Of a DNA stretch of 64,000 nucleotides, positions 5,754-61,214 are shown piece after piece. The notes under the pieces were generated by a model, which was not told the origin of the DNA, made no database searches, and saw only the letters and a list, made by a program, of their open reading frames with translations. Both the position numbers and the translations under genes were made by a program. This DNA is from Dactylorhiza incarnata (lineage: Eukaryota > Streptophyta > Magnoliopsida > Asparagales > Orchidaceae): the NCBI GenBank assembly GCA_033032865.1, contig JAWHQI010000079.1, positions 8,746,501-8,810,500 of the forward strand, in the 5' to 3' direction. Numbering within the stretch: the first letter of the stretch is position 1; each line of letters opens with the position of its first letter.

Positions 5754-6016
5754 ATCTCCCCCTTTTGATAATAACAAATCCTCTTAGCAAGAAATCAATA
5801 ATAGTGTTTATACTATATGATAAGCAAGATGATAGTGCAACTATAGTATATGATAAGAATGATAATGTGCATACTCCCCCTATCTTAATGCTCCCGCTAC
5901 ATAAATGCAATTTATGTTTTACTCCCCCTAAATGATAGATTACATGAATTATTCTCCCCTTAATCTTCTATATTTCTCCTACATATATTTCTTCAATTAA
6001 TCTCCCCCTTTCGGTA
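5754..6016 (-). promoter_or_regulatory. Polypurine tract cluster before the 3' LTR
   Basis: On the minus strand the last bases before the LTR are AAAAGGGGGAGAT, the expected primer for plus-strand DNA synthesis. Additional GGGGGAG-type tracts lie near 5873, 5922, 5955 and 6003. A spaced series of such tracts instead of one is a feature I associate with Sireviruses. Confidence 0.75.
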
Positions 6017-7229
6017 TTATCAAAAGAAGGTAGGGTGAGGGTAGTAAGGAGGCATTCTTTAGGCTAGTTATAAATCATGATCGAGCTTTTGTAATATATG
6101 AAAAGATAAAGTGTTTAAGCATAGTATATATAAGAGATTTCAAATAAAAATATAAGAGTTGTAAGCAACCGGAAGATTATAAGAAGCGTCTTTTTGTAAG
6201 CATGAAAAGCATAAGTAAAAATATGAGTTTTAGTTCAAAATTGAAATATATTTTAACCTTTTTGAAATCTCACAGTTTTTCATAAAGATACCAAGCATGA
6301 AATGAACATATCAAAGAAAGATTATACTACAATGTTTCTTAATTTTAAGTTCAAGAGATACCAAAACATTGTAGGGATCATGCTAGGTTATCTAGTGCAT
6401 TTCTTATATAAAGAGTAGTATATATAAAGCATTAGAATCCAATACTCATGAGAAGAAGTGTTATAAAAGATAATGATGTGCACATAAGTGTATTTTGGGT
6501 AATGTTAACATTTGATTTAAATCAACAAAATACAAGACATATGTAAAGTAAAATGCACAATAAAACACAAGTAAATTACTCTCACACACTTTTAATGCAC
6601 ATCATTTTTTTTAACAAAGTGGTGTAATAAACAAGGTTTGCACAAGACACTACTATTCTTTCCAAGGTGCTCAACCTCACAATGCTTATGAAGACTTATC
6701 AAGAGGTTCAAGTAGTGCTTGGTGGAGTTATATTTGTCTACATATATAATTAATTTTTTTTGTTCACATTTGTGAGACAACATTCTCCGAATACACTTGT
6801 TTTGCAAACCCCAAATTTTTAACTTAACCACTTTTCTAAATTTCATAAGTGCAATTCAAATATAGTGTAGGCAATAAACTTATGCAAGTTTTAATTCATT
6901 GTACAATTACAACACACAAGCAAGCATTTTATATTTAAACACACATGTTGATTACCAAAATAAGTGAGTGAAATGTATCATTATCAATCATAAAACATTT
7001 ACTCATACTTAGAGGCATGCTAAGCTTGGTTCTACACATTTTTCAATACAATTGATGCACTTTAAATAGATATATCAAAGCATGATAAACAAAACAATGT
7101 TCATAGTAATTTCAATGAATAAATTTTAACATTGTAAATAATTCTAAATAGTAGAATTCATACATGCTTGATATTGGCAATAAAGATCATACTGTTTTTT
7201 TTTGTTTTATCTTTTTTAAATCAATTTAA

Positions 7230-7475
7230 AAACAGAAAATCACAAAAACATATTTTTGTAATTTTTGAATTTTGAATTTTTGTTATAGATTTTTCATAAT
7301 ATGAATAAAACACAAATATCAAAAACATATTTTTGTATTTTTGAATTTTGAACTTTTGTAGTTGATTTTTCATAATATGAATAAAAACAGAAAATCATAA
7401 AACATATTTTTGTATTTTTGAATTTTGAACTTTTTTTAGTTATTTTTTTTCATAATATGAATAAAACACAAATAA
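7230..7475. repeat. 77-bp tandem repeat, about three copies
   Basis: The word ACATATTTTTGT recurs at 7248, 7325 and 7402, giving a 77-bp period. Each unit also holds TTTTTGAATTTTGAA and TTTTTCATAATATGAATAAAA. It lies in the non-coding interior of the gag-only element. Confidence 0.85.
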
Positions 7476-7564
7476 CAAAAGTCAGAAACACAACAAATAA
7501 GTAGTACATATGAACTAACATATTTTTATAGATTTTTAGAAATTTTAAAAATTAGAAAAATCAA

Positions 7565-7605
7565 AAACCCACGCTAGCGCCGGCGCTAGTGATAGCGCGG
7601 CAAAC
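7565..7605. repeat. Internal copy of LTR-type palindrome
   Basis: A GC-rich palindromic word (GCTAGCGCCGGCGCTAG, then GATAGCGC) stands alone in AT-rich surroundings. It resembles the GCGGTAGCGCTAGCGCTGGCGG cluster in the LTR of the same element. Confidence 0.55.
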
Positions 7606-10079
7606 AGTACGGGATTTTTTGAGAATTTTAAATTTTTTATTTTTTATTTTGATTAAGTGTCCTTAGAGTAGTCTTGTGATGAAATTTTGTAATTTTTGGA
7701 GATGTCTTGATTGCTCAAATTTGCATAAAACATTAGCATTTTCAAATACATGTGTTTTACAAAAACATTTAATCTCAAAAATATAAATTATGCAAACACA
7801 AGAGGACACATTTTTATTAAACAACCCAAAATATGCATGATTTAAGTGATAAGTAAATAAAATGATCATGTGAAGAGTAATATAAGTATGTCCTAAGATT
7901 AAAGACTACCCGGACTAAATGTCTACACCCTAGCCCCGTACTAAGTGACGGATGGGCATGAGGAGCTGCACACATGTCGTAGGTTGGGGTGTTAGTCCCA
8001 TATGCATACACTAACGCTCAACCTAACACTCTTTCCCCCCAGTGCCTCGCAAGGCCCCACTGGAACCCTCCCCGGTTAAGGACAAGACATGACTTAGAGG
8101 TTAGGTCTCTAATGCATACAACCCTACGCCCCCGCAATTGTGAGATATGAAGTCATAGGTGAATTGTCTTTGGACAACCTATGCTTTTAAACTATGGGTT
8201 GATATATAAACTATGAGTTTTATTTAATGTGATGAGTTAAATATTGTCGCATAGTTTTTCTACTTTTATGAGATGACGATATGAGATAACTAGCACAATT
8301 AATATTCAATAAGTGACAATGCTAGTATGATGAGTTTTGGATTTAATGTCACGTCATAAGATTAACATTAAAATTGCATGTATTCCAAAGTAGAGTTTCA
8401 AATTATAGATCTAAAATAGAGTGATGATTAAGTTTGATTTATACTTTCATTACAAAGTTGATTCTAGAATCTACAAATATGAGAGATATATGCAATCACT
8501 AGTAAAGCAAATCAATACATCAAATAATGTAAATGAAACATTATTCATATTTTTATCATAAGATTCATAATTCCTAGGAGATAAACATTATTGTTTTGAG
8601 ATATGTCTTGATAAAACATGAATTATGATTTATGATTATAGAGAATTTTGCATAGAATATATGTTAGATCATCATGATGAATGTGAATTCTATTCCTTCT
8701 AAACTTATGACAAAATGATTTGGTGATTTTCTATTGAATAAGAATGTTTGATTTGTAAGTCTAGAAAAAAAAATGATGATCATCTAATCATATAAAAGAC
8801 AAAGATCACATATATAAAGTTTTGAAATTTATAAGATTGCTTTCAATAATTGAATTTATTGATCTTTGGTTTTGCATGATAATATATGATTCATGATACA
8901 ATATTCATATATATTCAAATGATTAATCCATAAACTATGTGTTTGTTGGAATTTTAGTATTCTATTTATGATTTCAAATCACATAGTTATCATGAAATTT
9001 GAATAACATTGTAAGTGTTATACCTAGCATAAATATATAAGCATAGACCAAGAAGTGATGCTAGGATGATGAGTTTGAATGCAATGTTATTACATAGGAT
9101 TAATGGAGATAATGGTGCATGTAATATGAGAAGTTTTCAAATTAATTTTCTTTACACCTAGAATGAAATGATTAAGCTTTTGATTTTAATGATACAAGAT
9201 GATTCTAAGGTCTAAATTGCATGCAAATAATGGTGACACACATCACACACATAATATCTAAATTAATATATAAAACAATTATACTAAGGATTGCATGTGA
9301 TGAAAAATCCATAAACACAAAAATTTCCAAATCAAGAAAACTAAGATAGCTTTTAAAATGGAGTTGCAATTGGGCAAATTGACAACACCAAATGAACTCA
9401 AATGGGCAAGCCTAGTTTGCCGTTGGATGGAGATTTCTGTGCTCTTTCCAAAAATATATTAAACGCGAAAATCGGCGGGCGGATCAAAAGATATGGCTAT
9501 TTGAAGTTTTGATCGTAAACTCGCATTTTTAAAAGATTAAACATGTGTTTAGATGAATTTATGTTTTCAATTTTTTTAGATAATATTCTTCATTATAAGG
9601 GCTATCATATGCAGCAAACAAAAATAGAAAAGAATCAAAAACATTGCGCATTTTAATTTTTAGTTGCCCTTTAATAAACCATTTAAATCCAATCTTTAAA
9701 ATAGTTTCAATAGTCTTGATAATAATTTCAATATTCAATTTCTAATGATAATTCAAGACAATTAAGGGTAAAGGATTTAAAATGATAAAGAACAATCAAA
9801 GATGAGAGATAGATCACTTTGAAAAATATATGACTTAATGTTCAATTTTAATTCAAATTTGATTTGATAATCATTAGGCTTAATATATGAAAGTCATATT
9901 TCATGATATATAAAGTGATCATAGCATGTTTGTTCAAAAATAAAAAATAAACAAAAGAAAAGAGACAATAAGCATATCATGAAGTAGAGTAGTGATATTT
10001 CATTTTTAATTGTTTCTACTTCATGCAAATGATAGGATACTAATGAATGAGAGATTTAGGTATCCAAAGGTGACCAAGT

Positions 10080-11716
10080 GGGATGGTTCCTTTGGGTACC
10101 CAAATACATCGTGGTGGCTTTTTAGGAGACAGGGATAAATGGGCCCTTTCAATTAAAGTTGATGTGTCATTTTTCTTTAAGGGTCTCCATTCATACCTTG
10201 GTTATTTATCTTATAAATTCATATTATGATTATGTGACATCATTATATGATTATATTTGTTTGAAAAATAATTCAATTGTGATTTATGTTTATTCAAATT
10301 ATTTTTCAAAATAGATTGATGTTGATAATCATAATGAATTTTATTATATTGATTCTTTGAAAGTTTATAAGAGTGATTGTCTTTCTTTAGAATTGATTGT
10401 TGAAAGAGTGGGTTACAATATGTTTTAAAAGATTGATTATTATTTTGATGATTTTTATTTCCACTCTTTCTTATAGACATACTCTTATAATATGAAGGAT
10501 AATATTTTGTACTTTGATTTTCATGTAAAGGAGTTTTTAAATTTGAGTCATGTTGAAAATATATTGAGACTTGTAATAGTGACTCTTAAGAATTTTGTGA
10601 GGGTCATAATTCTTTTTGAAACTAAACTCCTTTTGAGTTGATGTATGAAAATGGTCTTTTTTACAAATGATTTTGTAAGTTATTTTATCTTTGTTATTCA
10701 AAATCTTATGATGAAATTCATTACAAGACATTTGAAATTTTTCAACAAAAGATTTTAATTGTAATAACTTACAAGATAAAGCATCATTTTCAATTATCAA
10801 TTTTTCATTATGCCTTTTAGAAATTAAGAGCCCTTTTTCAATTTCCTTGAATTTTTCTTTTAATAAATTGCAATCAAAACAAGGAATAGGAATTTTAACA
10901 AAAGAACAAGAGAGAGTATTTAACACATCAATATTTGATTCTACATTATCGTTTTCTTTTAAAGATTTATTTTCTAAACGTAATTTGGAATTAGCAATTT
11001 TTAACTTTAAAATTTTACATTTAGCAATTTTAAGCATACGAGAAGTAGAAATAGACTTTGTTACAAAAAGAGAAGTTTTAGATGTTTCTTACATTGCTAT
11101 GGGATGAGGCAAGATTTGGACCAACGATTCCTTTGACATCTTCTTTGCATTCCTCTTCCATAGTTGCATTTCTGTCTTCTCTTTTGCTTGATGTGTTGCC
11201 AACAAATGAGTCCAATATTGTGACGTTGTGTTCTTCTTCCTCCAAGCATGAGTCCTCATCGATTTCTTCTCTTGGATCCATAAGAAATTCCTCGTCGATT
11301 TCTCTCTTAGATTTATCTTCCTCCAAGAATGAGTCCTTGTCGATTTCTTCTCTTGGATCCATAAGGAATTCCTCTGGTTCATCATCTGTGGAAGGAAGAC
11401 TGTAAGAATTCTCAAGAAATTTCCGAACTTCATAAGCAGTAGGAAATGTATAAATAAGTTTGAAAATATTTTGATCTAATGCACAATATAGACTATTCAT
11501 TGATTTGGCATTTAAAAACATTTCATTTTTATTAAGAATACTTGGGGGCATTTTAATTGTAATATTCCATACTTCAATATCCAAAGATTTAAGAAATTTT
11601 TCCATAAGAAATTTCCACCCATTATAATTTTTGCCTTCAAATAAAGGTGGTGCTAAAGATTTTTTATTTATAAGAAAGTTTCCCCCATTAGTAGAAGCGA
11701 GATCATGAGACGCCAT
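10080..11716 (-). pseudogene. Copia gag, interrupted, the only protein gene of the element
   Basis: The frame opens with ATG at 11716, about 35 bp inside the primer-binding site, and reads MASHDLASTNGG. It continues through a copia gag N-terminus (motif PPLFEGKNYNGWKFLMEKFL, then DIEVWNI) to about residue 105. An acidic segment duplicated as EEFLMDPREEID(K/E)DS follows. A second open stretch (10537-11037) is lysine/asparagine-rich and coiled-coil-like, as in the C-terminal half of Sirevirus gag. A third (10211-10480) is Asn/His/Lys-rich. Near 10095-10140 the frame still encodes CIWVPKGT, matching the IWVPK end of the helper-type gag at 17910. Frame breaks separate the segments and I could not find an intact zinc knuckle. 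The whole resembles capsid protein without enzymes; whether it is still made is unknown. Confidence 0.7.
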
Positions 11717-11750
11717 TATTCCCAGTTTTTAAATCGATTTGGAATAACCT

Positions 11751-11763
11751 CGCTCTGATACCA
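11751..11763 (-). promoter_or_regulatory. Primer-binding site (initiator tRNA-Met type)
   Basis: On the minus strand TGGTATCAGAGCG starts two bases inside the 5' LTR. This complements the 3' end of plant initiator methionine tRNA and fixes the orientation of the element. Confidence 0.9.
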
Positions 11764-11765
11764 CT

Positions 11766-13205
11766 TGTTGGATCGATAGGCGCCCTTAGAGGGGGTGAAT
11801 AAGGGAATAAAATTCTTCCTTATAATTTTAAGAAAATTACTAAATTGTTTTATAATATGAGAAAGGCAAAATAACAATTTAGCTAATTTGTGAGAATATC
11901 ATAATTTTCAAGTTTAAAAATAATTGCTAAATTGTGTTATGATTAAAGAGATTGAAATAAACAATTTAGATAAAGAAATTTGAATTGAAAACTTTGTAAC
12001 CAATATTTTAGAGATAACGCCAAAGGAGAGAAATCAAGTAAACACAAATAGAGACATGATTGTATTTATATAAAAAGGTGTTTACATAAATTTGATTTCA
12101 ATATCGCTAGAAATCGGAGGCGTACAAAAGTAAATTTCTTTTCCTTTTCTATACCGACTTGTATCCCCACAAACCGGTTGGCTTTAGCCTATCCTTCCCC
12201 AGATAAGGCCTCAAGCCACTCTAGCAAATCCTTCCTCGGATATGGCCTCGAGCCCCCTAGATCTAATCACCTAGAACTAGTCGCCAACACAAGGCGAATT
12301 TCCCCCTAAGTCCTACCTAGACCTAGTCGCCAACACAAGGCGAATTCCTCCCTAAGTCCTACCCAGACCTAGTCACCAACACAAGGCGAATTCTCTAAAC
12401 GGTTACAAAAAGTATGGACTGAAAATAATGATAACAATTAATAAAACTCCCTATATAAGATCTTCTGAGGTCAGAGATGAAGGATCGTTGTAGTATAAGC
12501 GAGGTCGAAGCGATCGTCCTTCGGATGTAGCGTGACCTTGTCCTCCTCCAGAATTCTCCTTAAGCTTTTAGTGGGAGATCCATCTTCGGCAGCATAACAA
12601 CAATAGAATTGTGGCACTTACAACCTCTCTGGGATGGATTAGCCAAAATGATTGAAGTTGGCTCATTTTATAGAACTTGTAGATAGCGCTGCGGTAGCGT
12701 TCGTGTGGAGCGGTTGCGAAACCGTCGGCGGCGTGGCGCTGTGCACGAACTTGAGATAGTGCTAGGCGGTAGCGCTAGCACTGGCAGTAGCATTCGTGTG
12801 GAGCGGTTGCGAAACCGTTGGCGGCGTGGAAGACCAAACTTTCGTCGAACGGAATTCGTCGAATGAAACTTTCGTCGAACGGAGCTTCAAGTTCATCGAA
12901 CGGAAATTTTCGTCGAACGAAATTTTTGTCGAACGGAGCTTCAAGTTCGTCGAACGGAAATTTTTGTCGAATGAAGTTTTCGTCGAACGCAGGCAAGTTC
13001 GTCGAACGGAACCTGAGCTAGCGCCTGGCAGTAGCTCTAACGCTGGCGGTAGTGCATTCTTCCATATTTTTGAATTCAGCTGCTTTCTACCTGTGGAGTA
13101 TTGCACTTATAGTTCCTACACACTATAAACACACAAAATACAAAATCAAATACAATTTGGGATTTGTTATTTTCAAACAAAGGGATGTGACACACATGTC
13201 CAACA
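11766..13205 (-). repeat. 5' LTR of the gag-only copia element
   Basis: 1,440 bp, collinear with the copy at 4321-5753 apart from scattered substitutions and small indels. On the minus strand a TATAAAAT box lies at 12665-12672, and the TTCGTCGAAC/GCGGTAGCGC repeat cluster (about 12685-13040) lies just upstream of it. Confidence 0.9.
12665..12672 (-). promoter_or_regulatory. TATA box of the gag-only element's 5' LTR
   Basis: TATAAAAT on the minus strand, immediately downstream of the palindrome-rich part of the LTR. This is the expected U3 promoter position. The same box is at 5224-5231 in the other LTR. Confidence 0.65.
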
Positions 13206-13210
13206 ATATG

Positions 13211-14717: not shown

Positions 14718-14865
14718 TGTTGGAGCATGCGTTTCGCACTCCTCCGGTTTGATAATAACAAAGTCCCTTTTGTATTTGATTCTATTTTCATTAATGGTGT
14801 GCAGATAACAGGTATGAGATGTTCACATTGCTGCTGGAGCTAAAATTGAATGTGGGAAAATTTCA

Positions 14866-15195
14866 CTGTCGGAAAATTCCGACAGCCACTGTCGCCCAGG
14901 CGACAGCAGAGAAGTTACAACTACTTCCCTCCACGGCAGATCGACGAAAGACAGTTTTGCGCTGTCGGAATTCCGACAGCGATGTCGCCCAGGCGACAGC
15001 TCGGCGGTTACAACAACTGCCCACGTCTTCACCCACGACCGGCAGTTTTGCACTGTCGGAAATTCCGACATCGATGTCGCCCAGGCGACAGCTCGACGGT
15101 TACACCAACTGCCCACGACTCCACCCACGACGGCACTCCAGTGGCAGTTTAGCGCTGTCGGAAAATTCCGACAGTCGCTGTCGCCCAGGCGACAG
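14866..15195. repeat. Four palindrome pairs in the LTR (U3 enhancer-like array)
   Basis: Motif A (CTGTCGGAAAATTCCGACAG and variants) sits at 14866-14885, 14962-14979, 15053-15071 and 15154-15173. Each is followed within 2-4 bp by motif B (CTGTCGCCCAGGCGACAG and variants) at 14889-14906, 14982-14999, 15074-15091 and 15178-15195. The spacing between pairs is about 90-100 bp. The position next to the TATA box suggests transcription-factor binding, but this is inference. Confidence 0.9.
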
Positions 15196-15203
15196 TGAAT
15201 TTC

Positions 15204-15210
15204 TATAAAT
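15204..15210 (+). promoter_or_regulatory. TATA box of the 5' LTR
   Basis: TATAAAT 8 bp after the last palindrome pair. RNA would be expected to start some 30 bp further on, giving a U5 of roughly 760 bp. Confidence 0.7.
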
Positions 15211-16001
15211 TGGTTCCTTTGGATCGTGCATTCCAAGCTTTTGAGAATTCCAGTCCCTTCCTGAGTGCATACGAACCAGAGAGCTCCAGAACCTCCTCAA
15301 CTCCCATTTGTGCAAAGAAGGATTGAATATTGAAGACGAGATCGGGCGTGCTTCTACATCATCGATCATCTCGAGGCTTCAACAATCCATTCAGAGATCT
15401 GATCTTCTAGGGAGTTGTTCTTTTCATATTGTATTTTCATTCACATACTTTTTCATTTTGTATTGGTAGAGATATCGTCGTCTTGCGTGCGGCGTCTAAG
15501 TCCTTGCGCGGCTTAGGGGAAAATCGCTTCCTTGTGCGGAGCGTCCAAGTCCTTGCGAGGCTTGGTGGGAAATCGTGGCCTTGTGTGCTACGTCTAGATC
15601 TTGGGAAGATCTAGAGGATAGGCTTGGGCTTGGTCTTGGGAGAGACAAGCGATAGCCTTCCGATCCTTGGGAGAAGGATTGGTAAACCAAAATTATTGTA
15701 TTTTTATTATCATAATTGTGCCTTGATCTTAAGCATTGTTAAGATCATTTTTATTGTATGCAAATTTCATGATTAATATAATTATGCTCTTTTCACTAAT
15801 TGCAATTTTGTTTGCTTAAATCTTTATCTTAGAAATTTGTGTTTGGTTAAATACAAAAATTACATTGGTTTAAAATTATTTATAAGTAACCTTTTTAGTA
15901 AAGTAAAATTTGTCTAAAAATTATTAAGTAAAAATTATATTTTTAAAACACACCCTTATTCACCCCCCCCCCCCTCTAAGGGCGTCACACGATCCAACAA
16001 G

Positions 16002-16014
16002 TGGTATTAGAGGG
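16002..16014 (+). promoter_or_regulatory. Primer-binding site (initiator tRNA-Met type)
   Basis: TGGTATTAGAGGG two bases after the LTR end. It matches the usual TGGTATCAGAGC except for two substitutions, so this copy would prime less well than the consensus. Confidence 0.85.
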
Positions 16015-16048
16015 AGGTTACTCCAAAACGGTTTTACCACCGGGAGTA

Positions 16049-17980
16049 ATGGCGCACAACGATCACGCGTTTGTTGAGGGGCAAGGAATTAGTAGGCCAC
16101 CACTATTTACGGGCACAGACTATAATTATTGGAAGACACGTATGCGTTGTTTTCTAATTGCGCTAGATATAGAAGTCTGGAATATGGTAGAATCTAGTTA
16201 CACTTCTCCAACATATATTGTAGGAGAAGTAACTATGGATAAACCCAAAGACAAGTGGGATGACAATGATAAATTAAAATGTAAGAACAATGCAAAAGCC
16301 ATGAATGCTTTATTTTGCGCACTAGATCGCACTGAATTTAATAGAGTTTGTGCTTGTAACACTGCATTTGAAATTTGGAATTTGTTAGAAATCACTCATG
16401 AAGGTACTTCGCAGGTAAAGGATTCAAAGCTATTTCAACTGGAGTCTGAATTTGAAAGGTTCAAAATGGAGGTAGATGAAGAGGTTGATACGATGTACAC
16501 ACGATTCACAAAAATCGTGAATGACTCAAAGGTGCTAGGAAAGGTGTTCTCAAATGGAGATTTGGTAAGAAAAATTTTAAGATCACTTCCCCCGAAGTTC
16601 AATCCTAAAGTGACTGCAATTTCCGAGTCACATGATCTTAAGACTTTAAAATTGGAGAGCCTCATTGGGAATTTGAAAACTCATGAAGTTGAATTAAAAA
16701 TTCAACAACAAGAGTATATGGAGCCAAGGAAGAAGGGATTGGCTCTAAAATCTAAGAAGGAAGAAACTAGTGATTCTGAGGAGGATGAAGAAGATGAGGA
16801 GAGCTTATTTGTTAAAAAGTTTAGAAAATTTATGAAAAATCCAGAGAGAAGGAATTCGTTTAAGAAGTATTTTAAGAAGGAGACCTTTAGGAAGAAAAAA
16901 GGGAAAGAAGGCGATGAGGAGGAAGAGAGACCGCCACCAGAGTGCTATCACTGCAAGAAGTTAGGACACATCCGAAGCAAGTGTCCAAAGTACCTGAAAG
17001 AACTTAAAGAAAAGAAGCACAAAGGATCGAAGAAAGTGTTGAAGGCGGAAACATGGGATGATACTACTTCTGAGGATGGAAGCTTTTCAGATTCCAGTAA
17101 AGAAGAGGAGGCCAACATTTGCTTAATGGGAAAGAGCGTCATATCTGATGACGAATGCAGTGTCCAAAGCGACACTGAGGTAACTCCTCCAACCTATGAT
17201 GAATTATATTCTGAATTTTTAAAGACTTGCAAATTTTTTGAAAAAAGTTTAAAAGATAATGATCTTCTTAAATCTGAAAATGGAATTTTACGTAAAGAAA
17301 ACAAAAAATTGTTAAATGAAATTAAGACTATTGGAAAAAGAGATATTTCTTGCCAAGAGTGTGATCACTTTTTGGGAAGAATTAATGAACTTGAAGAATC
17401 TCTTTCCAAATCTCATTCTACAATAAAAGTACTTACTAAAAAGAATGAGATTTTAGAGAGAGATCTGAAATCTTCAATTTCCAAAGTCCATGAGGGAAAG
17501 AAATCTTTTGAACGTAGATGCGTAAATCTAGTATCCGAAAATACAAAAATGAGAAACCAGATTCATGACTTAATACTAGCCATGAAAAAATTTGGAATGG
17601 GACGAAGATCACTGGATATGATCTTAGGATACCAACGCCATGGATCTGGAAGATTTGGGCTCGGATACACGTCTGTAAGCTGTCGCCCGGCGACAACCAC
17701 TGTCGCCGGCGACAGTGAAAAGTCCAGAAAATCTACTTTTAAAAATTCTAAAATTAATAAATTATCAAATACTGCATCCTCATCCAGTAAAAGTCCAGAA
17801 ATGTTATACTCTTCTAAATACATTACATGTGCCAAATGCAATAGATTTGGTCACACTACGGACTCTTGCTGGAAGGAAGGAAAAAGTAAAATAAAACAAA
17901 TCTGGGTGCCTAAGGCTTCTACCTATACTATGGGTGGAACCACTTGGGTAACCAGATCTTTACTCACCTCCTCTTTCTAG
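16049..17980 (+). CDS. Copia gag polyprotein
   Basis: About 643 residues from the first ATG after the primer-binding site (MAHNDHAFVEGQG). The N-terminal part (residues about 20-190) is a copia gag capsid region with PPLFTGTDYNYWKTRMRCFL and DIEVWNMVE. A Lys/Glu-rich linker leads to a CCHC knuckle CYHCKKLGHIRSKC at residue 299. A long coiled-coil region (about 390-520) is followed by a second knuckle CAKCNRFGHTTDSC near residue 594 and the closing IWVPK motif. Gag packages the RNA and builds the cytoplasmic particle. The frame ends in TAG immediately before pol, which continues in the same frame. One palindrome pair of the LTR type is embedded in the coding sequence at 17680-17715, encoding residues that do not resemble conserved gag. 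Confidence 0.9.
   Translation: MAHNDHAFVEGQGISRPPLFTGTDYNYWKTRMRCFLIALDIEVWNMVESSYTSPTYIVGEVTMDKPKDKWDDNDKLKCKNNAKAMNALFCALDRTEFNRVCACNTAFEIWNLLEITHEGTSQVKDSKLFQLESEFERFKMEVDEEVDTMYTRFTKIVNDSKVLGKVFSNGDLVRKILRSLPPKFNPKVTAISESHDLKTLKLESLIGNLKTHEVELKIQQQEYMEPRKKGLALKSKKEETSDSEEDEEDEESLFVKKFRKFMKNPERRNSFKKYFKKETFRKKKGKEGDEEEERPPPECYHCKKLGHIRSKCPKYLKELKEKKHKGSKKVLKAETWDDTTSEDGSFSDSSKEEEANICLMGKSVISDDECSVQSDTEVTPPTYDELYSEFLKTCKFFEKSLKDNDLLKSENGILRKENKKLLNEIKTIGKRDISCQECDHFLGRINELEESLSKSHSTIKVLTKKNEILERDLKSSISKVHEGKKSFERRCVNLVSENTKMRNQIHDLILAMKKFGMGRRSLDMILGYQRHGSGRFGLGYTSVSCRPATTTVAGDSEKSRKSTFKNSKINKLSNTASSSSKSPEMLYSSKYITCAKCNRFGHTTDSCWKEGKSKIKQIWVPKASTYTMGGTTWVTRSLLTSSF
17680..17715. repeat. LTR-type palindromes inside gag coding sequence
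   Basis: CTGTCGCCCGGCGACA (17680-17695) followed by CTGTCGCCGGCGACAG (17700-17715). This is the same motif-B family as in the LTR, but placed within the gag frame between the coiled coil and the second knuckle. Confidence 0.85.
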
Positions 17981-20900
17981 GTGTGTTGGCAGGCTAAGGA
18001 CAAAGAAGACGTGTGGTACTTGGACTCGGGCTGTTCAAAGCACATGACGGGCAATAAAGAGAAGTTCCTTAGCCTGGAGATGAAGAAAGGAGGAGTTGTT
18101 ACATTCGGTGACAATGGAAAAGGAAAAATCATCGGCATCGGTGTTGTGGGTAACGAAAATTTTTCAATTTCAAATGTTTTATTTGTAGAAGGATTACAGC
18201 ATAATTTGATTTCCATTAGTCAATTATGTGATAAGGGTTTGAATGTTTTATTTGAATCTTCTACAAATTTATGCAAAATTATTAATTCCAAAACAAATGA
18301 AATTGTTTTTACCGCACCTAGATGTCATAATGTATATATGATTAAATTTCTTGATTTTTCAAATTCTACTTTGAAATGTTTTCTATCAAAAAATGATGAA
18401 TTAGATTTATGGCATAGGCGACTTGGACATGCTAGTGCCAAGTTAATTTCAAAACTTTCAAAAGATAAATTAATTAAAGGTTTACCTTTGCTAAATGGAA
18501 ATTTATCTTCTTCACTATGTGTGCCTTGCCAAAAAGGAAAATTTTCAAAATCATCTTTCAAAAGTAAAAACATTATTTCTACCACTAGGCCACTTCAATT
18601 AATACATATAGATTTATTTGGGCCAATTGGAATTTCTAGCTTAGGAGGTAGAAAATACACATTTGTTTTGATTGATGATTATTCTCGTTTTTGTTGGACT
18701 TTATTTCTAACCTCCAAATCCGATGCATTTTCAGAATTTTCAAAATTATGTTTGCGTATCCAAAATGAATTTGAGTTGAAAATTAAACGCATACGATCGG
18801 ATCATGGAGGAGAATTTGAAAATGAAAAGTTTATTTCTTTTTGTACGGAGTTAGGAATTAAACATGAATTTTCCGCTCCACGCACACCACAGCAAAATGG
18901 TGTAGTGGAGAGGAAAAATAGAACTCTTCAAGAGTTAGCCCGTACAATGTTATCTGAATTCAAATTACCAAAATCTTTTTGGGCTGAAGCGGTTAGCACG
19001 GCATGTTATGTAATTAATAGAGTAATGCTTCGCCCTATTTTAAAATTAACTCCTTATAAATTAATATTTAGTAAAAAACCAAATGTTTCTTATTTCAAAG
19101 TTTTTGGTTGTAAATGTTTTATTTTGAATTCTAAAGATTCCTTAGGAAAATTTGATGAAAAATGTGATGAAGGTATTTTTATTGGCTATTCTTCAACTAG
19201 TAAAGCTTATAGAATTTTTAATAAAAGAACAAAAATAGTTGAAGAATCGATTCATGTTAGGTTTGATGAGTTTGCTTCATGTGTAGAAAAGAAAATTACA
19301 GGAAAAGATGATGAACCCCTTCCATTGGTGGAGAATGATGAAGAAGAACTTGGAGAAAATGAAGAAGAAAAAGAAGAAGAAAGAGAAGAAGAAAGAGGAG
19401 AAGAAGATAGAGAAGAAGAAGAAAGAGAAGGATATGTGCCTCCAAGTGATTTGAGATTCTCAAAGGATCATCCAAAGGAGCTTATCATTGGGGATCCGCA
19501 AAAAGGGGTTAGTACTCGTTCATCACTACATGTTTTATTTTCAAACCTTTGTTTTGTTTCTGAAATAGAACCAAAAGATGTTTCCACCGCTTTAAATGAT
19601 GAATTTTGGTTTTTAGCTATGAATGAAGAACTTAATCAATTTGAACGTAATAAGGTTTGGAATCTTGTAGAACGACCAAAAAATCGTCCTGTAGTTGGTG
19701 TTAAGTGGATTTTTAAAAATAAAATGGATAATGAATCTAGAATTGTTAGAAATAAAGCCAGATTAGTTGCAAAAGGTTATGCACAAATTGAAGGGGTAGA
19801 TTTTGATGAAACTTTTGCACCCGTAGCAAGATTAGAAGCGGTTAGAATATTTCTTGCATTTGCTTGTTTTAAAAGATTTAAATTATATCAAATGGATGTC
19901 AAAACCGCATTTTTAAACGGGTATATAAAAGAAGAAGTTTATGTAGAACAACCCCCTGGCTTTATAAATGAGAAATATCCAAATTATGTTTATAAATTAG
20001 ATAAAGCGCTTTATGGATTAAAACAAGCGCCTCGTGCTTGGTATGATCGATTAACTCAATATTTGTTAAAGCACGATTATAAAATAGGAAGTGTTGATTC
20101 TACACTCTTCATTAAGCAAATTGATCATGATTTAGTTATTTTACAAATTTATGTTGATGATATTATTTTTGGAGTCACTAATGAAGAGTTGTGTAATGAA
20201 GTAGTTGAAATTATGAAAAATGAATTTGAAATGAGTATGGTTGGAGAACTTTCATATTTTCTAGGTTTTCAAATTACACAAAAACATGATGGAATTTTTA
20301 TATGTCAAACCAAGTATATTCATGATATGTTAAAAAGATTTGGATTTGAAAACCTTAAGCATGCAAACACTCCTATGAGTACTTCACTAAAATTAGGAAA
20401 AGATGAAAGTGGTGTTTCAATTGAACAAACCCTTTATAGAAGTATGATAGGGTCTTTATTGTATTTAACCGCATCTAGACCTGATATTATGTTTGCCGTT
20501 TGTTTATGTGCTAGATTTCAAGCTAATCCTAAAGAGTCACATTTAAAAGCGGTGAAACGTATCTTTAGATATCTCATTGGAACATCAAAATTAGGTTTAT
20601 GGTATCCACATAATGATTCTTTTATTTTGCATGGTTTTTCGGATTCTGATTATGCGGGGTGTTCTTTAGATAGGAAAAGCACTAGTGGCACTTGTCACTT
20701 TATCGGCCCTTCACTTATTTCATGGTCGAGTAGGAAACAGAATTCTGTTGCCCTCTCTACTACCGAGGCCGAATAAATTGCACTAGGTAGTTGTTGTGCC
20801 CAAGCACTTTGGATGTCCCAAACGTTAGAAGATTTTGGCATACAACAAAGTAGTGTAGAATTAAAGTGTGATAATAAAAGTGCTATAGATTTAACAAACA

Positions 20901-21097
20901 ATCCCGTATTACATTCTAGATCTAAGCATATAGACGTCCGACATCATTTTATAAGGGATCACATTAAGAAGGGTAATATAAAAATCAACTTTATAGGAAC
21001 GGAAAATCAACTAGCGGATATATTCACTAAGCCGTTACCGGATTCCCGTTTTTCTATGCTTAGGTTAGAATTGGGCATTCTAGACATTTCACAATGA
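17981..21097 (+). pseudogene. Copia pol: protease, integrase, reverse transcriptase, RNase H; one internal stop
   Basis: In frame with gag after a TAG. Numbering from the codon after that stop, protease has DSG at residues 15-17 ([13 protein letters not shown]). The integrase zinc site is H145, H150, C180, C183, and its catalytic D211, D274 and E310 are all present. Reverse transcriptase has the [10 protein letters not shown] and RLVAKGYAQ blocks and YVDD at 724-727. RNase H includes SDSDYAGC and KSTSGTC. At 20774-20776 a TAA replaces the tyrosine codon in the conserved TEAEY motif; the frame then runs on intact (DNKSAIDLTNNP, SKHIDVRHHFIRD, ADIFTKPL) to 21097. A single base change therefore truncates RNase H by about 107 residues. 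All catalytic residues upstream are intact. The gag-pol stop may be read through or be a second lesion. Confidence 0.9.
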
Positions 21098-21388
21098 ATA
21101 TATCACAATTTAAAGCCTATAAAATAAAAAATTATTATCACAAAACATAAACAAATGTAAAAACAAAAAGCCAAAATTCTAAAAATCAAAACATAAAATT
21201 TCAAAGGACTTAACAAAAATTCAACATCATCAATATTACATCAATATTGTTCACATAAAAACAGTAGAACAAACTTAAGGATCAAGTTCTTTAAATAAAA
21301 ATAGAAATCTAAAGAAGTTCACTGTCGCCCAGGCGACAGTGGATGTCGGAATTTTCCGACATCGCCCAGCAGCAGCAGCAACATAAAA
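21098..21388. other. Spacer between pol and the antisense gene, with a palindrome pair
   Basis: AT-rich spacer. Motif B (21322-21339) and a motif-A variant (ATGTCGGAATTTTCCGACAT, 21343-21362) lie just beyond the 3' end of the antisense frame, where its transcript would end. Confidence 0.7.
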
Positions 21389-22504
21389 CTACTCTGAATC
21401 TTCATAACCAGCTCCGCTGCTCTCTGGACAATCTTTTGGAAGTCCTCGTCTCACGGCTTTGCCACGGCGAGTTCGCCTCACCGATTGGCGTGGCGGTTCT
21501 TCATCCGGAACTTGCCATTCGGCCTCTTCCTCCGGAGTTGGTTTCAACTTCAGACCTTTGACGAGAAACTTCATAAATTTCTGCATTCGACTACGGTCCT
21601 TCTTCACTTCCCTCTTGTGATCCTCTAATGAATCACGCAAATCATCAATGGACTCTCGTAGTGATCCTGCCCTAGAAATGGTCGGCTCTCTAATCTCAAT
21701 CCCCGGATGAGCTTTTCTCTGCGGCTTCTTCACCTTCATTGAACCCGTATAATATATTTCCGGGTAACAATCATCCAAATAAGCACCTTGCACTATCCAT
21801 CCATACTTCTTGTAGAGTACACGCTGTATTACCGCCCCCATTGGCAGCGTATGAACCTTCACCCATCTTGGATGCTTTAATCTATACGCATACCTAATCT
21901 GGGCGAGTATGAAGTCCGCCACATCAAAAAGCTCATCCTCCATAATATAGTATGTAAAGAGGGTCAACTGAGCCGTAATGCTTCTTGTGTCTCCACTCTT
22001 CAACATCACTAAATTCCTTAATATATCTTGGACTAAGAACGCATCCGGAGTAAGTGAGGTAACTTCAGTGGTAAGACTCTTTTTTTGATTCCCATGTAAA
22101 CTCATGTTTACAAGGGTCCAATCTCTATCCTTTCGATAATTCTCCACTATATCAGGCATATTCTCACTCATCACTAGTCCGAATTCCTCTCGTAGATCAA
22201 CATGTGTTATTTCCACATATTGACCTTGGATCCTTGATCTCACTCCTCCATCCAATTTCGTGAAATTTGGGTCTTCCAAATGGTTATAAAATTCACGAAT
22301 GAAAAAGGAAGAAAACCCCTCTGGTGTGATTATTGAAATTATACCTGCGTTCGCAAGACGATCATAGATATGATCGTGCTTTGGCGACTCAAATTCCACA
22401 TACTTTGCTATTCCAACAATAGCCTTCTCCACCCCCGGAAAAACTTGATATGAAGTATGTGCATCTTCCGAAGTACTCTTTCGAGCTTTGGAACTGGAAG
22501 CCAT
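21389..22504 (-). CDS. Antisense ORF of the Sirevirus-like element (plant transposon-protein-like)
   Basis: 371 residues on the strand opposite gag-pol, uninterrupted although pol carries a stop. It starts MASSSKARKSTSED and ends SGAGYEDSE. The middle third (FFIREFYNHL, then ITAQLTLFTYYIMEDELFDVADFILAQI, quoted in part, and LPMGAVIQRVLYKKYGW) resembles the so-called putative plant transposon protein domain (PF20167-type), which is common in plant retroelements and of unknown function. The C-terminal third is a charged helix (about 280-320) followed by Arg-rich (RRTRRGKAVRRG) and acidic ends, so it may bind nucleic acid or enter the nucleus; that is a guess. No signal peptide or membrane segment is seen, so it is unlikely to be an envelope protein. 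The ATG lies one base after a strong 3' splice site, in keeping with a transcript spliced in its 5' UTR. Confidence 0.75.
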   Translation of the reverse strand: MASSSKARKSTSEDAHTSYQVFPGVEKAIVGIAKYVEFESPKHDHIYDRLANAGIISIITPEGFSSFFIREFYNHLEDPNFTKLDGGVRSRIQGQYVEITHVDLREEFGLVMSENMPDIVENYRKDRDWTLVNMSLHGNQKKSLTTEVTSLTPDAFLVQDILRNLVMLKSGDTRSITAQLTLFTYYIMEDELFDVADFILAQIRYAYRLKHPRWVKVHTLPMGAVIQRVLYKKYGWIVQGAYLDDCYPEIYYTGSMKVKKPQRKAHPGIEIREPTISRAGSLRESIDDLRDSLEDHKREVKKDRSRMQKFMKFLVKGLKLKPTPEEEAEWQVPDEEPPRQSVRRTRRGKAVRRGLPKDCPESSGAGYEDSE

Positions 22505-22505
22505 T

Positions 22506-23049
22506 CTGCAATAACATACAAAAAAATTTTATTAAACAAGGTATCACATTGTGCACTGGAACACTGTCGCCCAGGCGACAGTGGCTGTCGGAAATTTCCG
22601 ACAGCCCTCCAAGTGATTTTCTCTCAAAATTTTTACATATACTTCCAGATCTACTCAAAATAAATGTTATTTCAACATCAAGTTTTTAAAAAAAAAATTA
22701 TATATATATTTTTTTTAAATCAACATATTCTACAAATCCTTTACTATTCATCATCTTCCACCTTCTTATCTAAACTAGATCTACAAAAATCCTTTAGAAA
22801 ATGAACAAATGGAAACCTTCATCACCAACTCAAAAAGAAATTTAACAAAGATAAAAATTTTAGCAAAGATCCACCAAGATCCACTTGTTTTTAAACTAGA
22901 TCTACATTTTTCAAATCAAAAAATTTTCAAAACCTACACCATTCATCAAAAATCAACATGAACACTACATTTTCCTTCTTCTCTACTATCAAAATCACAA
23001 ATCCCTAAAAATTTTTGAGTTAAAAACACCAAAATAAAAAAACCCATAC
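22506..23049 (-). other. Candidate 5'-UTR intron of the antisense gene
   Basis: On the minus strand the donor is AAG|GTATGG at 23049. The acceptor is a T-rich stretch ending TTATTGCAG at 22506, one base before the ORF's ATG. The 544-nt interval is AT/T-rich, as expected of a plant intron. A palindrome pair (motif B 22564-22581, motif A 22585-22604) lies within it near the acceptor. Because it is antisense to the genomic RNA, this intron would not be spliced out during retrotransposition. RNA evidence is lacking. Confidence 0.6.
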
Positions 23050-23145
23050 CTTAGATCTAGGGATGTCGCCGACTTCCGACAGCCTTCCTCTCGTTTTTAA
23101 CTCCAGGAAATGATGCACAATAGGGTTTGACTCGGTCCCCATCCC

Positions 23146-23201
23146 TATTTATATTTTTCACTGTCGCCCAGGCGACAGTGACTGTCGGAAATTTCCGACA
23201 G
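23146..23201 (-). promoter_or_regulatory. Antisense promoter: palindrome pair plus TATA box
   Basis: Minus strand: motif A (CTGTCGGAAATTTCCGACAG, 23182-23201), three bases, motif B (CTGTCGCCTGGGCGACAG, 23161-23178), seven bases, then TATAAATA at 23146-23153. The LTR promoter has the same order and spacing (A, B, then TATAAAT after 8 bp). A start site some 30 bp downstream leaves a short 5' exon (roughly 23115-23050) before the intron donor. Confidence 0.7.
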
Positions 23202-24242
23202 CTCCCATTTTAACAAAACTCCAATTTAAGGTCCCTTTGATGATCTACAATAGTTATATGTCATTATTAATGCTTCACCTCATGACTTGATGACAAACCA
23301 TGTGTTATTTATTTTTTTTTTAAAATGACTTACATGTTTATATGATTTCATTTCCAAGCTATCATCGTATTGACACTTCTACTTAGTTGTTTAGACCATT
23401 GGAAATTGTTTTCGCATGCCTCTAAGTATGAGAAATTGTTTATCTATCATAATGAACTATCACGTTCACTTCTTTTGATCAATACGTATGTCTTTTTATT
23501 TAATATATACATGGATCATAATTGCTTTCACACAATAAAATAGCACTTCTTAAATACAACTTTCAACATTGATTTGTTAGCACAACAAAATATACACCAT
23601 CTTTTGCGATTCAAGTGAATTCGGAGATCCTTGGTCAATTAAAAAAAATATATCAATATATCACAATTAAGATATCACAACATCTGTGATCACAAAACTA
23701 AAAATAAAGACAAGGATACTCCACCAAGCACTACTTACCCTCCTGATAAGTCTTAATGAGCATTGTGAGGTTAAGCACCTTGGACAGAATTGTAAAGTGT
23801 CTTGTGCAAAAGAAACATGGTTTTCTATTTATCTTGTGCTATATCTTCAAAGTCAAAGTTGCCTTTATGTGCTTTTATTATGTTCTACATTTCAATGATC
23901 ATGTAAATTAAATAGCTTCATATGTTTGATCTAAGTATCACATGTACACATCATTATGTTAAATAAATATTCATCTCATGAGAATTGGACCGAAAATATT
24001 CCATAATTCTATACACTATTGTGTCTTTCTATGATACTTTCAAATGATCTTACTCATGTTTAAGTTCTTTCTTTCATTACTACATATGGCTATACCATCA
24101 CTTCATGAGCTTATTCATACTATGGCATATTCCTATTATTTCATGGACTTCAATCATTACTAACAAATTGCTTCCGCTTACTCTTCATTTCTATTTTCTA
24201 TTACCTTTCCCTTAAAAGCTATTCTTTTATCTAATATTCATT
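23202..24242. other. Non-coding interior between antisense promoter and polypurine tracts
   Basis: AT-rich, with no supported coding frame. It presumably holds packaging or 3'-end functions of the element, but no motif proves this. Confidence 0.5.
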
Positions 24243-24522
24243 TTTGCTAATACCAAAAGGGGGAGAATTTAAAGTATAAAAAGAAAAGTCACAAATCTAT
24301 CACACCTAAATATTCCACCTACACAATACATCATATATTTAGGGGGAGCATATATTTAGGGGGAGCTTTCATTTGGGGGGAGTTTTCATCTAAAGGTAGA
24401 TCATTTATTTTCAAGAAATATATATTATGTTAATTTTGTGCACACATCAAAGGTTAAAATCAACAATCTAAATAGACATGATTTCTTTTTATACGGATTT
24501 GTTATTATCAAAAGGGGGAGAT
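24243..24522 (+). promoter_or_regulatory. Polypurine tract series before the 3' LTR
   Basis: AAAAGGGGGAGAAT near 24256, AGGGGGAGC near 24340 and 24358, GGGGGGAG near 24376, and the final AAAAGGGGGAGAT abutting the LTR at 24510-24522. The last is the functional primer position. The repeats mirror those of the gag-only element (5754-6016) and include the same TTATTATCAAAAGGGGGAG context. Confidence 0.8.
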
Positions 24523-25809
24523 TGTTGGAGCATGCGTTTCGCAGTCCTCCGGTTTGATAATAACAAAGTCCCTTTTGTATTTGATTCTATTTTCATTAAT
24601 GGTGTACAGATAACAGGTATGAGATGTTCACATTGCTGCTGGAGCTAAAATTGAATGTGGGAAAATTTCACTGTCGGAAAATTCCGACAGCCACTGTCGC
24701 CCAGGCGACAGCAGAGAAGTTACAACTACTTCCCTCCACGGCAGATCGACGAAAGACAGTTTTGCGATGTCGGAATTCCGACAGCGATGTCGCTCAGGCG
24801 ACAGCTCGGCGGTTACAACAACTGCCCACGTCTTCACCCATGACCGGCAGTTTTGCACTGTCGGAAATTCTGACATCGATGTCGCCCAGGCGACAGCTCG
24901 ACGGTTACACCAACTGCCCACGACTCCACCCACGACGGCACTCCAGCGGCAGTTTAGCGCTGTCGGAAAATTCCGACAGTCACTGTCGCCCAGGCGACAG
25001 TGAATTTCTATAAATTGGTTCCTTTGGTTCGTGCATTCCAAGCTTTTGAGAATTCCAGTCCCTTCCTGAGTGCATACGAACCAGATAGCTCCAGAACCTC
25101 CTCAACTCCCATTTGTGCAAAGAAGGATTGAAGATTGAAGACGAGATCGGGCGTGCTTCTACATCATCGATCATCTCGAGGCTTCAACAATCCATTCAGA
25201 TATCTGATCTTTTAGGGAGTTGTTCTTTTCATATTGTATTTTCATTCACATACTTTTTCATTTTGTATTGGTAGAGAAATCGTCGTCTTGCGTGCGGCGT
25301 CTAAGTCCTTGCGCGGCTTAGGGGAAAATCGCTTCCTTGTGCGGAGCGTCCAAGTCCTTGCGAGGCTTGGTGGGAAATCGTGGCCTTGTGTGCTACGTCT
25401 AGATCTTGGGAAGATCTAGAGGATAGGCTTGGGCTTGGTCTTGGGAGAGACAAGCGATAGCCTTCCGATCCTTGGGAGAAGGATTGGTAAACCAAAATTA
25501 TTGTATTTTTATTATCATAATTGTGCCTTGATCTTAAGCATTGTTAAGATCATTTTTATTGTATGCAAATTTCATGATTAATATAATTATGCTCTTTTCA
25601 CTAATTGCAATTTTGTTTGCTTAAATCTTTATCTTAGAAATTTGTGTTTGGTTAAATACAAAAATTACATTGGTTTAAAATTATTTATAAGTAACATTTT
25701 TAGTAAAGTAAAATTTGTCTAAAAATTATTAAGTAAAAATTATATTTTTAAAACACACCCTTATTCACCCCCCCCCCCCCCCCCTCTAAGGGCGTCACAC
25801 GATCCAACA
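24523..25809 (+). repeat. 3' LTR of the Sirevirus-like element
   Basis: 1,287 bp, collinear with 14718-15999 with about 15 substitutions by eye and a longer poly-C tract near the end. It carries the same four palindrome pairs and TATA box. Confidence 0.95.
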
Positions 25810-37368: not shown

Positions 37369-38629
37369 TGTTGCGGCTTCTCAACGCCCTCGGTAGACCG
37401 GTTTCAATTCGGTCCGTCTTAGCCCGGGCGGTCGAGTGCGTACACAGTCAGAATGTTGCAGAGAGAAAATGTTGAAAATGGTACACACAGATCTTTAGCG
37501 TGGAAAACCCTCCAAATGGTGAAAAACCACGTGGCCGGGACGGTGCTGGCCGAAATCCACTATGTTGTGTTGTTACAGGGCTTTCTTGGAGAAGGCGAGG
37601 GCGACAGGCCGCGCCTCGTTACAGTTGTGAGAGAGAGAGAGAACTTCGTGGGTGACAGGCCACCACTTAGGATTTGATTGCCTTGCTGTGCGTCTGGTGC
37701 GGCTGTGCGCTTGCTGGGTGAGCCCTTCACGGAGCGCCTTGACTTTGCTGCTCTGGTTCGGGGTGCTCATCTCGAACGGCGTAGCACTGCTTCCTCGGTA
37801 AGAGGCGCTCGCAGGAAGAACCTGTCAGTTAGTAAAAAGGGATGGCGGAGTGTAGAGAGAGAAACTCTGAGGGAAGGAGGAAATGAAGAGAGAGAGAGTC
37901 TGGGAGAGAATGAGAGATTTTTCTTTCAAATGAAGACCCTTGAGGGTCTATTTATAGGCTTGGGAAGTGTAAGTTACGGTGGTTATCGCGGATAACCACC
38001 AAATGGAGGGCCGAGATCGTTGGCGACGATCGAAGGGTCGTGATCGCGCGAGACGATCGGAGGGCCGCGAGGGCCTTGGAGAGATCCAACGGTGGAGGGT
38101 GAAGGGCGGCGACGGCGGTGGCCGGCCATGGGTGGCCGGCCATGGCCGTCGGCCATGAAGGGGGCGGCGGTCGGCGGTCGGCCGGCCGGCCGGCCGGCGG
38201 TAGGCGGCGGCCGGCGGCCGGCGGCCGGCCGGAGGCGGCCGGCCGGAGGTGGCCGGCCGGCGGCGGTGGGCGGTGGGCGGTGGGCGGTCGGCCGGCGGCG
38301 GTGGCCGGCCGGCGGTCGGCCGGCGGCGGTGGCCGGCCGGCGGTGGCCGGCCGGCGGTGGTTGGCCGGTGGTTGGCGGCGGTTGGCCGACGACGGTTGGC
38401 GGTGGTTGCGATCCCGCGCGGGGCGGTTGGGACCCCGCGCGAGGTGGTTTGGATCGGTGCGTGGTGGTTTGGATCCGCCGCGTGGGAGTGGGATCCGGTG
38501 TGCGAAGGTGGGATTCGGTGTGCGGTGGTTTTCGGGATCCGGTGTGTGGTAATGGGATTTGATGTGCGGGAATGGGATCCGGTGTGCGGTGGTTATGGTA
38601 TTTTCCATAAGTAGAGGGGGAACCCATCA
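37369..38629 (-). repeat. 3' LTR of gypsy element B
   Basis: 1,261 bp. Minus strand TGATGGGTTCCCC to GAAGCCGCAACA. TATAAATAG lies at 37948-37956. Upstream on the minus strand are a perfect palindrome with 10-bp arms (37978-38000) and a G-rich GGCGGTGGCCGGCC variable repeat (about 38158-38400). Confidence 0.92.
38158..38400. repeat. GC-rich variable repeat in the 3' LTR of element B, G-rich on plus
   Basis: Degenerate GGCCGGCCGGCGG / GGCGGTGGGCGG units. The corresponding place in the other LTR holds a C-rich (CCGCCGCCTA)n array instead. Confidence 0.85.
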
Positions 38630-38641
38630 TTTGCCCCCCAA
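38630..38641 (-). promoter_or_regulatory. Polypurine tract of gypsy element B
   Basis: Minus strand TTGGGGGGCAAA immediately before the LTR start TGATGGG. Confidence 0.8.
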
Positions 38642-38705
38642 ATCCATTTGTTTGGAGCGCACGGAGAGCAATTGGATTTTCCCCTGCGACTTGTACCTGT
38701 GAGAG

Positions 38706-47235: not shown

Positions 47236-47309
47236 TGTTGTCGGTCACGAGTATTGCCACGAGGCGAATACTGTCTTCAGAGAACTTTTGCAGAGCGTGG
47301 GGAACACGT

Positions 47310-47327
47310 TTCCCACAGACGGCGCCA
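47310..47327 (-). promoter_or_regulatory. Primer-binding site of gypsy element B
   Basis: Minus strand TGGCGCCGTCTGTGGGAA, three bases from the LTR and identical to that of element A. Confidence 0.88.
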
Positions 47328-47330
47328 TAC

Positions 47331-60970: not shown

Positions 60971-61214
60971 TCAATATAGAGGGGATAGTTTCGCCTCCCC
61001 TGCCTTACCGCAGTGGTGGCACTTTCCTTCCTTCGCCATACCTTTCCTTTTCAGTGCAGAAGATTTGAGATCAAGATGAGACTTAGATCCTATATTTGTC
61101 TTCTTGGATCCCTTAGTCTTGCCCTTGCCTTTATGCACCATCAGTATGGGGCTAGCAGGCTTGACCTTCTTCATATTATTTTTGGCAGTTCTCAACATGC
61201 CTAGGAGCTCGGGC
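60971..61214 (-). pseudogene. Copia gag C-terminal fragment
   Basis: LPELLGMLRTAKNNMKK, then ILMVHKGKGKTKG and a damaged knuckle CHHCGKAG that lacks the remaining His and Cys because of a small deletion shifting the frame. The element is cut at LPELLG; upstream gag is absent and the host SAP gene begins. Confidence 0.8.

Follow-up and report, generated by a model that had tools for sequence, protein, structure and literature searches.

The window, the 64-kb stretch of Dactylorhiza incarnata DNA analysed here, carries an LTR retrotransposon flanked at both ends by the TSD GTTGT. This element is a Sirevirus of Ty1/copia type. Pfam searches identified copia gag, integrase and RVT_2 domains with the integrase before RVT_2 (copia order), and the CCHC knuckle scored 20.5 bits, just under the Pfam cut-off of 20.8. 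Two further Sirevirus traits were found: palindrome A of the LTR has a CGG-CCG core with a TATA shortly 3′ of it, and the core of the polypurine tract occurs twice before the 3′ LTR (24256 and 24511). The RT-RH stretch gave 7983 matches in the protein database; the named organisms among the 120 matches listed were plants, and the top identity of the element's RT among the 120 RT relatives listed was 71%, a measure of similarity rather than of position in a tree. The two LTRs are 98.4% identical (K2P 0.013), which would date the insertion to 0.5-1.0 My, assuming a substitution rate of either 1.3e-8 or 7e-9. Between pol and the 3′ LTR lies a linker of 3,424 bp. No long sense ORF was found in it, the longest sense open run fully inside being 88 codons, and its minus strand carries the antisense ORF studied here. 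The features of the element are collected in Table 1.

Table 1. Features of the Sirevirus element and its antisense gene (positions in the window)
Feature	Position	Strand	Details or basis
Sirevirus (SIRE/Maximus, Ty1/copia) element	14718..25809	+	LTR ends, TSD, Pfam
5′ LTR	14718..15999	+	1282 bp
LTR promoter module (RM A, RM B, TATAAAT at 15204)	15155..15210	+	5′ LTR
gag-pol, single frame	15980..21097	+	in-frame stops 17978-17980 and 20774-20776
RM pair directly 3′ of ORF, without TATA	21320..21362	-	sequence
Antisense ORF, 371 codons + stop	21389..22504	-	Transposase_32-like 61-213, helix 281-317, basic tail
Presumed leader intron, 544 nt, GT...AG	22506..23049	-	41% T, 7% C, 14 ATGs
Intronic RM pair, without TATA	22562..22604	-	inside presumed intron
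Presumed exon 1	23050..23125	-	5′ end inferred from TATA spacing; RM half-sites, 0 ATG
TATAAATA of antisense module	23146..23153	-	linker's only TATAAAT, either strand
Palindrome B, antisense module	23159..23180	-	sequence
RM palindrome A, antisense module	23182..23201	-	sequence
Polypurine tract adjoining 3′ LTR	24510..24521	+	sequence read
3′ LTR	24523..25809	+	1287 bp
LTR promoter module (RM A, RM B, TATAAAT at 25009)	24960..25015	+	3′ LTR

Elsewhere in the window, we identified a gypsy element (37371-48193) with gag-pol on the minus strand and plus-strand ORFs at 39266-39781 and 40274-40897. Its antisense ORF matched Transposase_28 (PF04195) at 22.3 bits, below the cut-off of 26.2, and with the second open frame next to it makes a Retand-type arrangement; BLASTP detected no significant similarity between this Retand-like ORF and the antisense ORF of the Sirevirus. 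Another LTR element lies on the minus strand at 4321-13207 (LTRs 94% identical), with no ORF of at least 90 codons listed between 5756 and 10210. An ORF at 61080-61652 encodes an AN1-type zinc finger (PF01428, 32.5 bits) and is perhaps a host gene.

The longest open run in the linker spans 379 codons, whereas none of 1000 dinucleotide shuffles exceeded 224. The ORF has the traits of an antisense accessory gene (aORF-3R): it lies on the opposite strand, in the interval between pol and the 3′ LTR, and is conserved like the element's other proteins. Codon usage trained on gag-pol failed to pick its frame (0.007, -0.227 and 0.017 for the frames of the ORF strand). The original prediction had stressed that the ORF is intact while pol is broken. 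This contrast carries no evidential weight by itself, because with two stops in about 1,700 gag-pol codons none in 371 codons is the likelier outcome anyway.

An intron had been proposed between the promoter and the ORF, with the donor AAG/GTATGG at 23049, the acceptor TTATTGCAG at 22506, an ATG at 22504 and a stop ending at 21389. The sequence signals of this presumed intron were confirmed, and every feature named in the original prediction was found again at its position. The first intron base lies 97 bp past the last TATA base, while one base sets the acceptor apart from the ATG of the ORF. Donor-like and acceptor-like strings occurred jointly at these positions in 0 of 5000 shuffles (donor-like alone in 1.6%, acceptor-like alone in 0.3%), with patterns that were defined after the sequence had been seen. 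The spliced junction was absent genome-wide within 3 mismatches and no processed copy was found, so that this source gives no proof of splicing. TTNGATYTG is an enhancer motif of leader introns; it was not enriched in the presumed intron, where 4 were observed against 2.7 expected. The shorter string GATCT occurs five times in 22506-23049 (mean 0.4 and maximum 3 in 500 shuffles).

Upstream of the presumed exon 1 lies a module of palindrome A, palindrome B and TATA that resembles the presumed promoter module of the LTRs. The spacing described earlier held in both places: the linker TATA is 7 bp from the 18-bp core of B (5 bp from its 22-bp form), and the TATAAAT of the LTR is 8 bp from the B core (6 bp from the 22-bp form). 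However, the single linker module that had been implied proved to be one of three RM pairs. All three linker A-B pairs are oriented as the antisense gene, and only the pair on the 5′ side of the gene has a TATA beside it; the chance of finding TATAAAT beside one of the three is about 0.005. Each LTR contains at least two A-B pairs in the orientation opposite to the linker pairs, and the LTR pair nearest the middle carries the TATAAAT. The CGG-CCG core of Sirevirus RM boxes is present in palindrome A and absent from palindrome B. Two B-like palindromes were also seen near the 3′ end of the gag coding sequence (17681-17714). In addition, each LTR has a minus-strand TATAAATA (15877-15884 and 25682-25689) that is not beside an RM pair and could possibly act as an antisense LTR promoter.

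The most CpG-rich stretch of the linker is not the promoter module but the 3′ end of the ORF, beside pol (21319-21918; GC 0.43-0.55 and CpG observed/expected 0.8-1.1 in 200-bp steps). Like the two linker RM pairs that lack a TATA, this position counts against our reading of the locus. In other Sireviruses, according to the sections of PMC2829016 used here, RM boxes are placed before the ENV gene on the pol side, as this CpG-rich stretch is.

To assess conservation, we searched the 3.27-Gb host genome for copies. A protein query produced 9114 first-look candidates, of which 110 were scored; these 110 matches were 96-100% identical across 370 or 371 residues, and 95 of them, the window copy included, had no stop. 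Because such a list is biased to intact copies, a second one was drawn with the non-coding leader as query, which gave 40 places out of 2291 candidates, 39 of them besides the window itself. A copy lacking the gene had no way to enter lists queried with the protein or the leader, and the share of the family lacking the gene is therefore not given by them. Among the 39 leader-selected copies, the frame was open in 19, interrupted by one or more stops in 17 and shifted in 5, with 2 copies showing both defects.

The dN/dS of the ORF was 0.20 (codon bootstrap 0.14-0.29) in 35 sequences, that is, the 39 leader-selected copies without the 5 frameshifted ones and with the window, and was lowest in the Transposase_32-like part (0.12). 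An RT piece from 20 of the 39 copies (3 gapped ones dropped and the window included, 18 sequences) gave 0.24 (0.16-0.38), and the ORF in the RT-matched 20 copies gave 0.19 (0.13-0.29; 20 sequences, one dropped and the window included). Across 40 sequences, which here include those with frameshifts, the variants seen only once comprised 48 synonymous, 108 nonsynonymous and 11 stop changes, while shared variants comprised 51 synonymous, 25 nonsynonymous and 5 stop changes (Fisher p 2e-7 for synonymous versus nonsynonymous, singleton versus shared), which is the pattern predicted for near-neutral decay in dead copies together with purifying selection in propagating lineages. The 28 protein-selected loci, whose selection is biased to conservation, gave a dN/dS of 0.16 for the ORF, 1.3-1.5 for the shifted frames and 1.4, 0.29 and 1.5 for the reverse frames; the reverse frame with 0.29 has its third positions in common with the ORF. 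Our claim of selection relies not on these loci but on the 39 copies picked by their non-coding sequence. The antisense ORF has been under purifying selection: the proposed check on dN/dS returned about 0.2 and not 1, and the family check showed that the other sampled copies carry the ORF.

These data bear on whether the gene acts as a protein at all. It is exceedingly improbable that the locus is non-functional, either a chance ORF or a passenger relic. The frame is broken in about half of the leader-selected copies (20/39), as a relic might be, but the RT-like low dN/dS and the mainly synonymous shared variants refute such a reading for the coding part, and the leader signals described below are found in nearly all sampled copies. 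The antisense transcript might instead act as RNA, by pairing with the genomic RNA or by yielding siRNA. The linker is part of the genomic RNA and could pair with such a transcript, and RNA-level antisense effects are discussed for other elements in parts of PMC7264820. However, a dN/dS of 0.2 means that the protein is selected, which largely refutes a sole role as RNA and makes this account very unlikely, although both effects can coexist.

We then compared the leader signals among copies. For this we used 27 of the 110 listed copies (the bottom 20, and the 7 that ranked highest behind the copy in the window), which were picked by protein and whose leaders are thus unselected. The intron GT was kept in 26/27 and the AG in 27/27. 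GT, AG and TATAAATA were all kept in 39/39 leader-selected copies, a list that favours them, and TATAAATA was kept in 24/28 protein-found loci, the window's own included. Substitutions per aligned cell in the 27 copies amounted to 5.7% in the intron interior and 5.6% in the presumed exon 1, against 1.3% in the donor, 1.7% in the acceptor, 1.4% in the TATA, 2.7% in palindrome A and 4.1% in palindrome B of the promoter module. Promoter palindrome B is thus not strikingly better conserved than the intron. The intronic RM pair showed only 0.9% substitutions and no deletions in these copies, despite having no TATA and several CpG. Deleted cells made up 5.1% of promoter B, 3.7% of the TATA and 2.9% of the donor, compared with 4.2% of the intron, and weaken the case for conservation of these three segments. 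A random-block test of the core sites gave P 0.049 for substitutions in the 27 copies and, when indels were counted as well in the set of 39, P 0.062; the copies are related and the test is weak. The substitution totals suggest that the copies fall into a few sublineages. The 21-bp donor context has 279 exact occurrences in the genome, compared with 0 for a reversed control. Nearly every copy sampled contains the splice sites, the TATA and the RM boxes.

Taken together, the family copies and the dN/dS make the antisense, intron-containing gene of the original prediction well supported as a selected structure, while its proposed promoter of LTR type rests on the likeness of the modules and on their conservation. 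From the signals in the DNA, transcription from the RM-TATA module and splicing of the leader are likely.

The product had been called PF20167-like. A Transposase_32 match does cover residues 61-213 (27.4 bits, E 3.6e-6), but it lies under the Pfam cut-off of 45, and we regard the protein as a distant relative of Transposase_32 (PF20167) without filing it as a member. No protein relative was found at E 0.001 in 5.8 billion sequences, among those sharing 5-residue words, and residues 40-270 as the query found none at E 10 in the same sequences. Searches of IMG/VR and prokaryote contigs confirmed nothing, and the best match in the PDB sequence search had an E of 0.23. A single-sequence AlphaFold model had a mean pLDDT of 37, too poor for a fold search; helix 281-317 is the only part near 70, has some heptad-like hydrophobic positions and is predicted to be coiled-coil-like. 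The protein has a pI of 8.3 with a basic tail, and its mean hydropathy stays at or below 1.16 in every 19-mer, indicating the absence of a membrane segment. The ENV-like gene of Sireviruses is described as having transmembrane and coiled-coil segments (PMC3414828).

Where the gene came from can be approached through its domain. One possibility, which we hold only tentatively and judge somewhat less than even, is that an ENV-like linker gene of a Sirevirus, which other Sireviruses read in sense, was inverted together with its RM boxes, outlasted the inversion because these boxes serve as its own internal promoter, and gained the intron later. The ORF, being on the minus strand, lacks the sense orientation after pol of a Sirevirus ENV-like gene. 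However, two Hibiscus sabdariffa gene models, P0110 and P0093, contain a Sirevirus-like RT followed by a sense Transposase_32-like stretch, so that the ORF in the window could be a gene of this type in reversed orientation. Their tails are rich in heptad-like repeats and their C-terminal parts are 64% identical; the PF20167 match of P0110 (E 1.2e-6) is near that of the ORF, and that of P0093 reached only 0.013. When their profiles were compared, the ORF matched P0110 in the register expected from PF20167, yet with an E of 0.06 for one target, and their direct similarity was not significant (z 0.5, BLASTP E 1.2, hhalign probability 0.1%). Moreover, both models are gene models and not verified elements. 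Inversion also fits the RM boxes, which in the 13 elements covered by the portion of PMC2829016 used here occur in the linker of 9/9 ENV-bearing and 0/4 ENV-less RM elements; the present element has linker RM boxes and an antisense ORF in place of a long sense one. A genome search with P0110 gave 55 scored matches, all of them RT and none informative on the linker. Its tail had three weak matches in the genome (G000:C632:436331-436954, G000:C3017:5850839-5851447 and G000:C3017:5920769-5921371), with 24-25% identity and E 5e-4 to 7e-4 among the 124 of 294 candidates scored.

Alternatively, the source of the gene may be an Athila-type gypsy element from which it was captured; Transposase_32 is typically carried by the 3′ ORF of such elements. 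A genome search with PF20167 scored 150 of 8771 candidates at 143.5-162.5 bits. We read 10 distinct loci of these 150 (5 of 8 cut out and 6 fetched, one being in both), and in all 10 a gypsy-type integrase or pol was followed by the ORF in sense. We take these 10 loci to be Athila-like elements. The same domain is carried by an ORF of sunflower Athila, as reported in part of PMC11728184. However, the 27.4 bits of our ORF are so far below the scores of the listed loci that any capture from Athila must be ancient, and we consider this origin unlikely.

Based on the above results, we propose that the linker holds a conserved antisense gene that starts at the RM-TATA module, is spliced in its leader and encodes a nuclear accessory product; as a joint reading of the locus, we consider this probable. 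The antisense gene is unreadable from the genomic RNA and, if expressed, needs an independent promoter; together with the selection on the protein, this makes the RM-TATA module at 23146-23201 the obvious candidate. RNA polymerase II would start about 25-30 bp past the TATA, near 23120 on the minus strand. Removal of the leader intron would then make the ATG of the ORF the first in the mRNA, since without splicing the 14 intronic ATGs precede it. The genomic RNA corresponds to the other strand, where these splice sites do not exist, and the intron could therefore persist through reverse transcription. As the linker promoter has the same A-B-TATA module as the LTR, RM-box factors might switch on the genomic RNA and the accessory gene together. 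The product would, by analogy, be a nuclear accessory protein aiding the element's own expression or integration, the role that appears most likely given the Transposase_32-like domain, the coiled coil, the basic tail and the lack of a membrane segment.

We also considered whether the protein itself binds the RM palindromes of the element, in the LTRs, its own promoter and the intron, as a sequence-specific factor. This seems quite doubtful to us. If true, the retrotransposon would possess a circuit of positive feedback and anti-silencing whose logic resembles that of the VANC proteins in VANDAL DNA transposons, as presented in sections of PMC13317346. The arrangement at this locus turns the question of whether RM boxes are promoters into a testable one, and it suggests a route by which an intron may survive in a retrotransposon, via the strand opposite the genomic RNA.

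Among known systems, the closest are other Sireviruses. As set out in the sections of Bousios et al. 2010 (PMC2829016) consulted, RM boxes lie upstream of the LTR TATA and beside the ENV-like gene, those of the linker being placed between pol and ENV, upstream of ENV; the idea that the linker gene has an internal promoter dates from 2002 and that of RM boxes as its regulators from 2010, with no internal promoter conclusively identified according to those authors. The element described here shares with these Sireviruses the CGG-CCG palindromes before the LTR TATA and beside the linker gene, multiple polypurine tracts and a SIRE-type gag-pol. It differs from them, as far as that account goes, in the antisense orientation of the linker gene, the TATA beside the RM boxes, the leader intron and a palindrome B without the CGG-CCG core. 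In the portions of Neumann et al. 2019 (REXdb, PMC6317226) used here, eORF-3′F is forward in 74% of SIRE elements and forms 19 groups with little mutual similarity, whereas our ORF is reverse. No report of an antisense, intron-containing Sirevirus gene was found among the open-licence papers listed, although the supplementary tables of PMC6317226 may include reverse ORFs of copia elements.

Antisense accessory genes are described for the gypsy elements Grande (gene23), RIRE2 and Retand in parts of PMC7264820 and PMC11963269, and the Grande gene is reported to have its own promoter and a nuclear product (PMC7264820, same parts). These share with our ORF the opposite strand and the interval between pol and the 3′ LTR. 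However, their hosts are Ty3/gypsy elements and not a Ty1/copia Sirevirus, the Retand proteins have Transposase_28 (PF04195) where ours is Transposase_32-like, and the sections of the two papers used here describe no RM module for them. The Athila 3′ ORF, as outlined in PMC11728184, resembles ours in its Transposase_32-type domain and linker position, but it has a gypsy host, a sense orientation and a far higher PF20167 score. Finally, HTLV-1 HBZ is likewise a retroelement protein from an antisense spliced transcript, which in our case is predicted from the sequence; it starts in the 3′ LTR of an animal retrovirus, and the likeness meant here is one of arrangement. Antisense accessory genes are thus known from gypsy elements, and what appears to be new at this locus is the Sirevirus host, the RM module as a candidate promoter and the putative leader intron.
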